From positions 1 to 44,122 of the forward strand of contig NZ_QMEA01000041.1 of the NCBI RefSeq assembly GCF_012912105.1: a stretch of DNA of 44,122 nucleotides, read 5' to 3'. Below the pieces are notes generated by a model. The model saw only the letters and a list, made by a program, of their open reading frames with translations, did no database searches and was not told where the DNA came from. The position numbers were made by a program, and so were the translations under genes. This document shows, piece by piece, positions 1-19,316 of the stretch. Numbering within the stretch: the stretch's first letter is position 1; each line of letters opens with the position of its first letter. Source of the stretch: Brasilonema sp. UFV-L1. Its GTDB lineage: Bacteria > Cyanobacteriota > Cyanobacteriia > Cyanobacteriales > Nostocaceae.

Positions 1-54
1 ACGGGGATTTGAGAAGCCCACACTGACCCGTTAGGGCAGTGTGTGGTAGTTCAC
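1..54 (+). mobile_element. IS200/IS605-type right end (3' remnant, enters from left)
   Basis: The sequence GAAGCCC is followed by a hairpin (CACACTG at 19-25 pairs with CAGTGTG at 37-43, and CCC 27-29 pairs with GGG 34-36 around a GTTA loop), then TAGTTCAC ending at 54. The same plan, GAAGCCC, imperfect hairpin, then TACTTCAC, is seen on the minus strand after the intact tnpB at 32408-33586. This is therefore most likely the right end of a tnpB-bearing element whose coding part lies left of the window. The right end of such elements also forms the scaffold of the guide (omega) RNA, so the guide would be read from base 55 on. Family assignment is inferred from structure; the upstream gene is not visible. 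Confidence 0.55.
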
Positions 55-10670: not shown

Positions 10671-11147
10671 TTAACTAGCTAGAAGGGTCTTTTGTAAAGG
10701 TGTCCAACGAAAGGCGCGATCGCCACCCCTCTCAATCACCACTTTGACTCGTGGTTCTAAGCTGGGTAAGGTGGCTAAAAACTCAACTTCTTGATCACTA
10801 AGAACATGTCCTTCGATGATCCACAACACCAAGCCCTTTGATTTGGGTGGAAGCTGTTCAAGTTGAGAGCTAACAATCGGCGGTACATAATACACATAAC
10901 CGACTGCCGCACCAGTACTAGTGCTTTTTTTGCCAAGATGAGGAGGTCTAACACCATGAACTCCTGTAAGATAGGCAGCTACATCGCCTAATCCCTTTGC
11001 ACTCAGATCGAGAGTGACATAACCTGTTGCACGCAGTCGGCGTCTGTAGCGACCTTCAAAACCTCCTTCTGGAGGTACGTAAACACCAAGAGCGCCAAAT
11101 TTCTCCAAATCTCGAATTAAAGCGTTGCCAGTGGTAATGAGTGCCAT
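10671..11147 (-). CDS. ndhN: NAD(P)H-quinone oxidoreductase subunit N
   Basis: The 158-residue protein is a peripheral subunit of the photosynthetic NDH-1 complex (subcomplex with NdhL, M, N, O), which passes electrons from ferredoxin to plastoquinone in cyclic flow and respiration at the thylakoid. It matches NdhN throughout: MALITTGNALIRDLEKFGALGVYVPPEGGFEGRYRRRLRATGY, then LTGVHGVRPPHLGKK and VGYVYYVPP, ending FRWTPLQKTLL. The start is unambiguous and the length is usual. It is divergent from the ribosomal cluster, separated by a 904-base region that must serve both. Confidence 0.96.
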   Translation of the reverse strand: MALITTGNALIRDLEKFGALGVYVPPEGGFEGRYRRRLRATGYVTLDLSAKGLGDVAAYLTGVHGVRPPHLGKKSTSTGAAVGYVYYVPPIVSSQLEQLPPKSKGLVLWIIEGHVLSDQEVEFLATLPSLEPRVKVVIERGGDRAFRWTPLQKTLLAS

Positions 11148-12051
11148 AAATTGATTTTTGTTCTATCCCACTTCGATATCTCTATTATTGACTATTATTG
11201 ACTTTGACACTCCCATCACGAAAAATGGATGGAGATTTCCGCAAGGAGAGTTAAATGAAGCAGATGGGAAAAGGTACGTCTGTACGCTAAATAGCCAAAA
11301 AAGTTCTACATAACGAGCACCAAAAACCCTTGAAACAAATTTATAGACAAAGATAAATCAATGAGCTATACTACTGGATCGTGACCAAAGTTTAATAACT
11401 AACCATTTGAATTGCCATTTTTAGCTAGTATTAGCATCAAAAACTGATGACTAAGTTCCATGTGGATAAACTAGCAAAAGTTGATGAATAAGTGGTAAAC
11501 TAGAAAGACTGCGATGACAAGTTAAGGAGTGGTTGGTTAAACAATCAATGCCAACCTTGAAGGTAAACTGCATTCACTCCTAAACCTCAAGGCAACAAGG
11601 TAAAACTTTCAAGAAGTTTAAACGGCTGTTTGAGGTGGTTAAAGTAGGAGTTTCGCAGTTGTGTTGATTTGTAGCATTGCACAAATCTCAGCCAACGGAT
11701 ACTGGGCAGCTTGCTACCCAAGTCCTACTACAACGTGCCAGAGCAATTGCTGAAACGAAGGCATTGCTGCACAAAACGCAAAGCATCATCGCCTTGCACA
11801 AAGTTCAAAAGTTGTCCCTTTCAAGAAGGGAGGCGCTTTTGGATTTTCTGGTAACGAGTACAACGTAAACGGATTCATCTGTACAGACCCTGAGTGAAGA
11901 CCCAAAGAAGTTGTAGCTGTTATCACCTGAGCAGTTCGACTTCAGAGGTCAGTCCAAAAAACTTGGAATTCGCCCTGAGGAGCGTTCACAAAGTGTGTCC
12001 TAGAGAATCTGATGTCAACAAAAAGCAAATAAATAAGGAGAGCCAGTAACT
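11148..12051 (+). promoter_or_regulatory. Long divergent regulatory region and putative leader of the ribosomal cluster
   Basis: This 904-base stretch lies between ndhN (minus) and rplC (plus) and has no recognised gene. It holds a well-placed Shine-Dalgarno (AAGGAGAG at 11243-11250) before a mini frame MKQMGKGTSVR at 11255-11290, two near-repeats GTGG(A)TAAACTAG around 11466 and 11494, the alternative stems at 11526-11651, a hairpin GGGCAGC/GCTACCC near 11702-11719, and the rplC Shine-Dalgarno at 12035-12040. A 63-codon frame at 11677-11868 (TTG start) has no recognisable protein. Such a long spacer before rplC suggests a regulated 5' leader. Confidence 0.55.
11526..11651 (+). promoter_or_regulatory. 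Candidate RNA switch: overlapping alternative stems upstream of rplC
   Basis: CACTCC (11575-11580) can pair upstream with GGAGTG (11526-11531), with GGTTGG (11531-11536) and CCAACC (11551-11556) as an inner alternative. The overlapping ACTCCTA (11576-11582) can pair downstream with TAGGAGT (11645-11651), supported by ACCTCAA (11584-11590) with TTGAGGT (11630-11636) and an inner AAACTT/AAGTTT stem (11603-11619). The two folds cannot form together. Function as an attenuator or ribosomal-protein binding site is inference. Confidence 0.45.
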
Positions 12052-12693
12052 GTGTCTGTAGGTATTCTCGGCACCAAGCTGGGCATGACCCAAGTGTTTG
12101 ACGAAGCAGGAGTAGCCATTTCTGTAACCGTCATTCAAGCGGGACCATGCACCGTGACCCAAGTAAAAACAAAACAGACCGACGGTTACTCCGCCATCCA
12201 AGTAGGTTATGGCGAAGTCAAGCCAAAGGCGCTGAACAAACCACTGTTGGGACATCTTACCAAATCGTCTGCCCCAGCATTGCGTCACTTGAAAGAGTAT
12301 CGCATAGATAACGAGAGTGAATATGCGTTAGGTCAACAAATTAAAGCGGATATTTTCAGTATAGGTCAAACTGTAGACGTCATCGGTACAAGTATTGGTC
12401 GCGGTTTTGCTGGTAACCAAAAACGCAACAACTTTGGTCGAGGACCGATGTCGCACGGTTCAAAAAACCATAGAGAGCCAGGTTCGATTGGTGCGGGTAC
12501 AACTCCCGGTCGTGTTTATCCAGGTAAAAGGATGGCAGGACGTTTGGGTGGTAGCCGCGTCACAATCCGCAAGCTGACTGTGGTACGAGTAGACCCAGAA
12601 CGCAACTTAATACTTATCAAGGGAAGTGTTCCTGGTAAGCCAGGTGGTTTACTAGATATTGTCCCTGCAAATATAGTTGGTAAAAAGTCGTAA
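12052..12693 (+). CDS. rplC: 50S ribosomal protein L3
   Basis: L3 (213 residues) is a primary binder of 23S rRNA domain VI and initiates large-subunit assembly. The protein begins [15 protein letters not shown] and contains the diagnostic loop [20 protein letters not shown] and [14 protein letters not shown], which reaches toward the peptidyl-transferase centre. The start is GTG with AAGGAG at 12035-12040. It is the first gene of the cluster; rpsJ is absent here, as is normal for cyanobacteria. A long structured leader precedes it, and a 216-base repeat-filled gap separates it from rplD. Confidence 0.97.
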
Positions 12694-18159: not shown

Positions 18160-18345
18160 TGAGTCCGGTGGGCGGGTTTCCCGACTTGTAGACGCCCTCT
18201 GGGCGGCTTCCCGTAGGATAGCACAAGCACGTCAAGTGGCAAACCCATAGGATCATTGGTCATTAATAGAAAAACAAAAGACAATAGATTTAGACTTTGG
18301 ACAATCATCCCTGACCAAGCCCAGGGATAAAAAGGACAAAAAACT
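18160..18345 (+). repeat. Repeat-derived spacer between rplX and rplE
   Basis: It contains GGGTTTCCCGAC (18174-18185, inverse of 644-655) followed by a GCCCTCTGGGCGGCTTCCCGTAGG palindromic block. These blocks occur scattered in cyanobacterial intergenic DNA. No gene is seen; AAAGGA precedes rplE. Confidence 0.65.
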
Positions 18346-18894: not shown

Positions 18895-18914
18895 GTTCAT
18901 CTAAAGAGGAAACG

Positions 18915-19316
18915 ATGGCGGTTAACGACACAATTGCAGATATGCTCACGCGCATCCGCAATGCGAACATGGCGCGGCATCAAACGACACAAGTGCCATC
19001 CACAAAAATGACTCGTAGCATCGCAAAAGTCCTGCGGGAAGAAGGTTTTATTGGTGAGTTTGAAGAAGCAGGAGAAGGAGTGAAGCGCAATCTGGTGATT
19101 GCTTTGAAATACAAGGGCAAAAATCGCCAGCCTCTGATCACTACCCTCAAGCGAGTAAGTAAACCTGGTTTGCGCGTTTACTCCAATAAAAAAGAACTAC
19201 CAAGAGTACTAGGCGGTATCGGTATTGCCATTATTTCTACATCAAGTGGCATTATGACTGACCGGGAAGCACGGCGTCAGAACTTGGGTGGTGAAGTACT
19301 GTGCTACGTTTGGTAG
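18915..19316 (+). CDS. rpsH: 30S ribosomal protein S8
   Basis: S8 (133 residues) binds the central domain of 16S rRNA. It starts [21 protein letters not shown] and ends [33 protein letters not shown] precedes the ATG. In E. coli S8 is the repressor of its operon; no copy of that binding site could be recognised here by eye. TCATTAG heptamers begin directly after its stop. Confidence 0.97.

Follow-up and report, generated by a model that had tools for sequence, protein, structure and literature searches.

A conserved, covarying hairpin with the S8-binding letters of 16S rRNA helix 21 heads the rplC gene cluster of cyanobacteria and probably serves S8 feedback

We found that the leader of rplC in Brasilonema sp. 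UFV-L1 contains a hairpin with the letters of the S8-binding core of 16S rRNA helix 21. The leader is conserved, the hairpin recurs ahead of rplC in nearly all loci examined from the class Cyanobacteriia, and its stems covary. Our preferred reading, to which we give a probability of roughly 0.83 from sequence comparison, is that this is an S8 autoregulatory leader in which the helix 21-copying hairpin would sense surplus S8 and lower expression of the fused S10-spc cluster. It provides a compact RNA target, open to direct testing, in front of the main ribosomal gene cluster of nearly all class genomes examined, and would represent the same protein-RNA contact as in E. coli, placed and built differently.

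The S8-core hairpin and its ribosomal counterpart

The window, meaning the whole stretch of DNA analysed, is 44,122 nucleotides long (contig NZ_QMEA01000041.1). Three of its features are central to the proposal:

11697..11725, + strand: S8-core hairpin P3, GGAUACUGGGCAG..CUACCCAAGUCC, identified by core letters, presence counts and covariation
12052..12693, + strand: rplC (L3), first gene of the cluster, an open reading frame whose protein was matched in 40 of 40 relatives
18915..19316, + strand: rpsH (S8), gene of the proposed regulator, an open reading frame in the same gene run as rplC, matching solved S8 chains

The hairpin, GGAUACU...AAGUCC, lies about 50 bases past a pair of alternative stems proposed in the initial annotation of this leader. 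Its U11700, A11701, C11702 and U11703 correspond to 16S positions 641-644, and A11720, A11721, G11722 and U11723 correspond to 595-598. The E. coli 16S letters are AAGUC (595-599) and GAUACU (639-644), and those of a same-genus genome are CAAGUC and GGAAACUG; no 16S gene was found in the window's own assembly, and same-genus and same-family 16S genes were used instead. The S8 site of helix 21 is described in the accessible text of PMC4176348 as A595-(A596-U644), (G597-C643)-U641 and an invariant A642, with A+80-(A+81-U+11) as the counterpart in spc mRNA. Every one of these determinants can be read in the letters of 11698-11703 and 11720-11724, including the U or A of position 641, base triples as such not being visible in sequence. 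Of the 82 loci outside the family, 75 have U and 7 have A at position 641, and the 16S genes read likewise have one or the other there. The S8-core pattern matches the + strand of the window once, in the rplC leader, and a stricter version has a single match in the window's genome.

S8 targets in mRNA modelled on helix 21 have been described before, in the E. coli spc operon (PMC4176348, as far as its accessible text goes). At the start of E. coli rplE, numbering from the A of ATG, GAAACU occupies +6 to +11 and AAGUC +80 to +84, in agreement with the numbering in the available part of PMC4176348 if its +1 is that A, as we assume. The cyanobacterial leader shares with the spc site the copying of helix 21, in an mRNA that probably encodes S8 as well, and the order of the words, GA[N]ACU first and AAGUC last. 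Here GGA[U/A]ACU comes first and AAGUCC last, so that the loop connecting the two rRNA strands closes the opposite end, as in E. coli spc. In contrast, the E. coli site belongs to the start of rplE, within the spc operon, and separates its two words by 68 nt, whereas here the site occupies a separate leader, about 100-450 nt before rplC, heads a fused S10-spc run, and mostly has a short loop, placed within a junction or preceded by an A-rich stretch.

The protein encoded by rpsH in the window is 53% identical to E. coli S8 and retains S-T-S; one S8 sequence that it matched includes PDB entry 1s03, and the accessible text of PMC4176348 names 1s03 as an E. coli S8 complex. The gene lies on the strand of rplC within the same gene run, as checked in the window alone. 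For Synechocystis 6803, the available part of PMC3925133 describes rpl3..rps8..rpl15 as one operon whose main start lies 337 nt ahead of rpl3. A separate observation concerns the gap between rplX and rplE, which at 186 nt (18160-18345) is long for a tightly packed cluster; its + strand contains no S8 core.

Several known systems resemble this leader in part. The E. coli S10 leader is likewise a long structured leader before an S10-type operon, but its ligand is L4, the accessible text of PMC10931766 mentions no S8 core in it, and its first gene is rpsJ, not rplC. Published ribosomal leader motifs (PMC7247131, in its available part; Rfam 15) belong to the same class of cis-acting, rRNA-mimicking leaders. 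In contrast to these, our leader has no match at Rfam gathering scores, and the string "cyanobact" is absent from the main text of PMC7247131. The rps8 target proposed for Synechocystis in PMC3925133 (accessible text) involves the same regulator, operon and kind of feedback, but that speculation concerns the spacer before rps8, whereas the site described here is in the rplC (rpl3) leader. On the regulation of the spc operon by S8, a 2024 review (PMC10931766, parts available) remarks that phylogenetic studies "have not been advanced" and that nothing is known of such control beyond the gamma-proteobacteria. Within the open literature searched, in part available as partial text (including PMC7247131, PMC10931766, PMC4176348 and PMC3925133, with a term search in PMC4734099 that yielded nothing), no earlier report was found of an S8 site in the rplC leader, of its architecture or of its near-general cyanobacterial presence. 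As far as that literature goes, the helix 21-copying S8 mRNA site is thus known, and its place in the rplC leader, its architecture and its near-general presence in cyanobacteria are new.

Distribution and covariation of the hairpin

Weak model matches in the rplC leaders of other families pointed to P3, and GAUACU...AAGUC was present about 240-310 nt before rplC in all six outgroup loci (L026-L031). A pattern search of 292 genomes of the phylum returned the core in 68, with the reversed pattern in 17 rows by our own count. Thirty of the matched loci were fetched; in 28 of them the core stood on the strand of rplC, 206-363 nt ahead of the gene, and the other 2 had no rplC in the fetched stretch. 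The core was upstream of rplC in 102/102 Nostocaceae loci, most of which were chosen by leader similarity, and in 82/86 other loci. When 80 loci were fetched by rplC protein alone, the core was present in all 79 that were usable (23 of these seen before), one contig being too short.

Within the class but outside the family, GA[N]ACT..AAGTC was found in 76/80 stretches upstream of rplC, compared with 1/80 antisense stretches and 85/4000 shuffles. With at least 3 inner pairs demanded, these counts were 63/80, 0/80 and 9/4000, respectively. By eye, the four class misses comprised one core whose loop spans about 95 nt (L216), one partial core (L214) and two loci with none or a fragment (L236 and L255). 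Nine of ten members of one family with genome sizes of 1.7-3.0 Mb, probably the picocyanobacteria, had the exact core, and the tenth had CAGTC for AAGTC. Of two further loci, L258 had the core and L257 did not. Core carriers include Thermosynechococcus, Picosynechococcus PCC 7117, Crocosphaera watsonii WH 8501 and Acaryochloris. Outside the class, 0/10 loci of the phylum had the core. In three loci from another class of the phylum (L269, L270 and L275), rplC follows what looks like the end of rpsJ, and the S8 core was not seen; the origin of the S8 leader may coincide with rplC becoming the first gene of the cluster.

The core letters served as search anchors, so part of their invariance in the counted sets follows from the way these were assembled; neither the covariation nor the controls are affected by this. 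Where a locus had several hairpin candidates the best-paired one was counted, which introduces a small upward bias, and the set used for the rplC-tree null also admits CAGTC.

Both helices flanking the core were evaluated against shuffles in the 82 loci outside the family. Outer pair 1 was GC, AU, GU or UA in 82/82 loci (shuffle maximum 72), outer pair 2 was paired in 60 (45 for shuffles), and each of the six inner pairs exceeded every shuffle. Outer pairs 3 and 4 showed no pairing in these loci. Against a null built on the rplC tree (108 loci), the observed pairing of 0.874 was reached in 0/500 simulations (null mean 0.724, maximum 0.809). Pair by pair, the null reached the observed value in 3 and 165 of 500 simulations for outer pairs 1 and 2, and in 55, 5, 0, 1, 2 and 10 for inner pairs 1-6, respectively. 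The flanking helices are thus kept by compensatory change, with 6/8 pairs at no more than 10/500, outer pair 2 not significant and inner pair 1 weakly so.

Leader architecture in Nostocaceae and the alternative stems

The hairpin and the alternative stems lie in a 907-nt divergent spacer between ndhN (10671-11147, minus strand) and rplC (from 12052, plus strand). This spacer recurs in Nostocaceae. The elements recognised in the window's leader are as follows:

11344..11372, + strand: predicted promoter TAGACA-17-TATACT (10/12 matches), transcription start expected near 11379
11381..11389, + strand: GTGACCAAA box right after the predicted start, found with a degenerate regular expression in 65/102 Nostocaceae loci
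11488..11502, + strand: conserved -10-like box, consensus AGACTG.TAAACTA, from conservation over 102 Nostocaceae loci
11525..11581, + strand: upstream alternative stem, AGGAGTG/CACTCCT plus GTTGG/CCAAC, read in the sequence; 97.0% paired and mostly invariant in 11 relatives
11576..11651, + strand: downstream alternative stem, ACTCCTA/TAGGAGT plus ACCTCAA/TTGAGGT, read in the sequence; without covariation
11605..11636, + strand: Nostocaceae hairpin H1, consensus ACCUUAAAC..GUUUAAGGU, from the consensus fold of 102 sequences
11644..11731, + strand: three-way junction of P1 (GUAG 11644-11647/CUAC 11728-11731), P2 (about 11650-11692) and P3, the S8-core hairpin, from the consensus fold
11735..11842, + strand: hairpins P4 (GUGC..GCAC, 11735-11772), P5 (11778-11797) and P6, in the family only
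12035..12054, + strand: Shine-Dalgarno AAGGAG (12035-12040) and the GTG start of rplC (12052-12054), read in the sequence and conserved over 102 loci

The predicted promoter TAGACA-17-TATACT is upstream of all the alternative stems and would give a leader of about 670 nt, so that this stretch is probably transcribed, judging by promoter prediction. A start downstream of 11651 would have spoken against the leader proposed in the initial annotation; the predicted promoters all lie upstream of that position, the transcription start itself being a prediction. The strongly conserved box at 11488-11502, some 120 nt past the first promoter, marks a possible second start inside the leader. In the class, TAGACA-14..20-TAnnnT occurred upstream of the S8 core in 50/76 loci compared with 17/1520 shuffles; the predicted leaders of loci with this promoter measure 169-605 nt, and in ten of them the core begins 11-14 nt past the predicted start. 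The GTGACCAAA box resembles sequences in distant cyanobacteria, and in a Thermosynechococcus locus (L286) the S8 hairpin follows it directly, compared with a distance of about 300 nt in the window. We also noted a 63-aa open reading frame inside the leader (11677-11868).

A blastn search with 11380-12051 matched 155/192 genomes of the family Nostocaceae, and many weaker matches were confined to about 11655-11880, downstream of the alternative stems. The 121 loci collected were reduced to 108 by removing those with identical last 500 nt and to 102 by leaving out the six outgroup loci; most of the 102 were selected by similarity of leader DNA, and 24 (before duplicate removal) came from the rplC protein search. 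Their consensus fold consists of hairpin H1, the three-way junction (P1 GUAG/CUAC, P2 and P3) and hairpins P4-P6. In the window, the 5' arm of H1 is degenerate and its 3' arm lies at about 11628-11636. The 5' strand of P2 (11650-11655) reads GUUUCG in the window compared with GUUGAG, GCUGAG or ACUGAG in relatives, which weakens P2 here. Four loci (L014, L072, L086 and L093) have insertions of about 70-90 nt between CUAC and GUGCC, i.e., between the junction and P4.

For H1 and the junction (alignment A1), 93.6% of cells were paired and the covariation was 0.246, compared with 0.183 when shuffled and at most 0.096 when slid (56 sequences). The paired percentage is raised by the removal by hand of 16 loci with deviant or shortened structure, after which 61 diverse loci were taken and 56 aligned; seven of the 16 later matched model R1. 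The tree null for canonical pairs was reached in 1/200 simulations, and none of the pairs taken individually had p ≤ 0.05. For P4-P6 (alignment A2, 53 of 61 diverse loci aligned), 90.4% of cells were paired with a covariation of 0.139 (0.107 shuffled). Because the tree null was reached in 14/200 simulations, again with no single significant pair, the covariation support for P4-P6 is weak, and these hairpins rest mainly on conservation. A pairwise G-test against the tree null within Nostocaceae returned 0 significant pairs among 39 and 33, in or outside the structure. An order-wide search with model R2 found 28/291 genomes, all of them Nostocaceae, using filters that lose weak matches.

The initial annotation had described the upstream and downstream stems as mutually exclusive, and the letters bear this out. 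The segments are GGAGTG (11526-11531), GTTGG (11532-11536), CCAACC (11551-11556) and CACTCC (11575-11580) for the upstream fold, and ACTCCTA (11576-11582), ACCTCAA (11584-11590), TTGAGGT (11630-11636) and TAGGAGT (11645-11651) for the downstream fold. The predicted fold varies with the length folded: 11500-11680 alone gives the downstream stem and 11500-12060 gives the upstream stem. The folding energy of 11500-11680 is just mildly beyond chance (z -1.76; 8/200 shuffles equally good). TAGGAGT overlaps GUAG (11644-11647), the strand of the junction helix that partners CUAC (11728-11731). A possible helix UUCACU/AGUGAA near 11573 was spotted by eye.

The compensatory changes that the initial annotation had proposed to look for were absent from the downstream stem and nearly absent from the upstream stem. 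In the 11 close relatives (alignment A3), the upstream stem is 97.0% paired nearly entirely through invariance: 6/7 and 2/5 of its pairs never vary, and a double change occurs in 1/12 pairs (3 sequences). For the downstream stem, covariation was found in 0/14 pairs, and its 83.1% pairing in the same relatives equals the shuffled value. Simulations on the tree gave equal pairing in 37/200 and 55/200 cases for the upstream and downstream stems, respectively. Joint covariation of the two alternative stems, the mark of an attenuator, was found neither in the 11 relatives nor against the tree simulations. In the alignment of 102 Nostocaceae loci, this stretch belongs to the more weakly conserved portions of the leader, and by eye the first hairpin appears to be paired locally instead in many of the sequences.

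Proposed feedback and rival explanations

The interpretation that accompanied these stems in the initial annotation was an attenuator or riboswitch-type leader working through exchange of the CACTCC/ACTCCTA stems, possibly with L4. That this is a long, structured and conserved leader stands, and it is best read as a ribosomal-protein leader; the switch does not share in this, its downstream half lacking covariation. Both folds are possible and exclusive, their predicted use depends on the length folded, and the upstream stem is kept in the 11 relatives. Set against this are the downstream stem, the two tree nulls and the seemingly local pairing of the first hairpin in many other Nostocaceae, described above. 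Evolutionary comparison gives the switch no support, nor does it count firmly against it, the 11 relatives varying too little. The sequence offers no pointer to L4 as ligand, and the neighbouring conserved hairpin carries the S8 core. A terminator pattern scan of 11100-12100 found 0 intrinsic terminators, and Rfam 15 gave no leader match at gathering scores, on which ground a riboswitch or known RNA family was discarded; up to E 10, the one match was to a snoRNA model, at chance level and far under the cut-off. We consider the exchange model very unlikely.

Another ribosomal protein, e.g., L3, L4 or S11, could bind the hairpin, the likeness to helix 21 then being coincidental. L4 controls the E. 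coli S10 operon (PMC10931766, accessible text), and the cluster here opens with rplC and rplD; against this, every recognised S8 determinant is present in the hairpin, down to the U or A of position 641. The words AAGUC and GAAACU recur in E. coli 16S rRNA at about 59 and 128, so the pair is not unique to helix 21, but this second pair is absent from both cyanobacterial 16S genes read; we take the two E. coli words not to be helix partners. Mimicry of 23S rRNA (an L3 or L4 site) was discarded after a scan of the 23S copy of the window's genome with the conserved letters gave nothing convincing, and no such word pair was seen within range. Binding by a protein other than S8 thus seems quite unlikely to us. 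The hairpin might instead be an S8 site used mainly for something other than feedback, e.g., as a decoy for free S8 or an aid to nucleation. A conserved link from hairpin to ribosome-binding site was not found over 178 loci, as such uses would allow, but the hairpin is upstream of rplC in 76/80 and 79/79 loci with rpsH in the same run (checked in the window), and we hold a non-feedback role to be most improbable. That S8 acts at the 5' UTR of rps8, with the rplC leader serving another purpose, was a speculation of Dienst and colleagues from the 91-nt spacer before rps8 in Synechocystis (PMC3925133, accessible text). The corresponding rplE-rpsH spacer in the window is 20 nt (18895-18914) and has no S8 core, and the sole + strand core match is in the rplC leader; on this comparison, made in the window, such an arrangement is scarcely credible.

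We therefore return to S8 feedback through the rplC leader. A conserved, covarying S8-type hairpin heads the rplC cluster, set in a three-way junction in Nostocaceae and about 11-14 nt after the predicted transcription start in some other cyanobacteria. In all likelihood, S8 in excess of free 16S rRNA would bind this hairpin, and bound S8 would lower expression of the whole fused S10-spc cluster, rpsH included. We infer the binding, the negative sign and the route of control from the sequence. For the output, blocked rplC initiation with polar downstream loss or leader-dependent mRNA decay seem likelier than attenuation. A direct duplex between hairpin and ribosome-binding site was discarded, as its energy was near that of shuffled sequences (-0.27 kcal/mol over 178 loci) and showed no anti-Shine-Dalgarno signal. 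Terminator-like sites after the hairpin were in excess (32/178 loci compared with 116/1780 shuffles), yet they are not a conserved feature, and terminator-based attenuation was also discarded.

A broader scenario is doubtful: an early S8-sensing leader of oxygenic cyanobacteria, perhaps kept in some plastids, would control the entire fused S10-spc-alpha cluster, and the window's clade would have added the exchanging stems as a lineage-specific output switch. In it, UAGGAG would pair with ACUCCU, the junction CUAC or the S8-core UCC, coupling S8 binding to folding.

The last 30 nt before rplC in loci L177-L256 contain a GGGAGACCAGTTACT-like ribosome-binding region, often after a GTAGTGTGTA-like stretch. 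By eye, this region appears more conserved across the class than a plain Shine-Dalgarno sequence requires.
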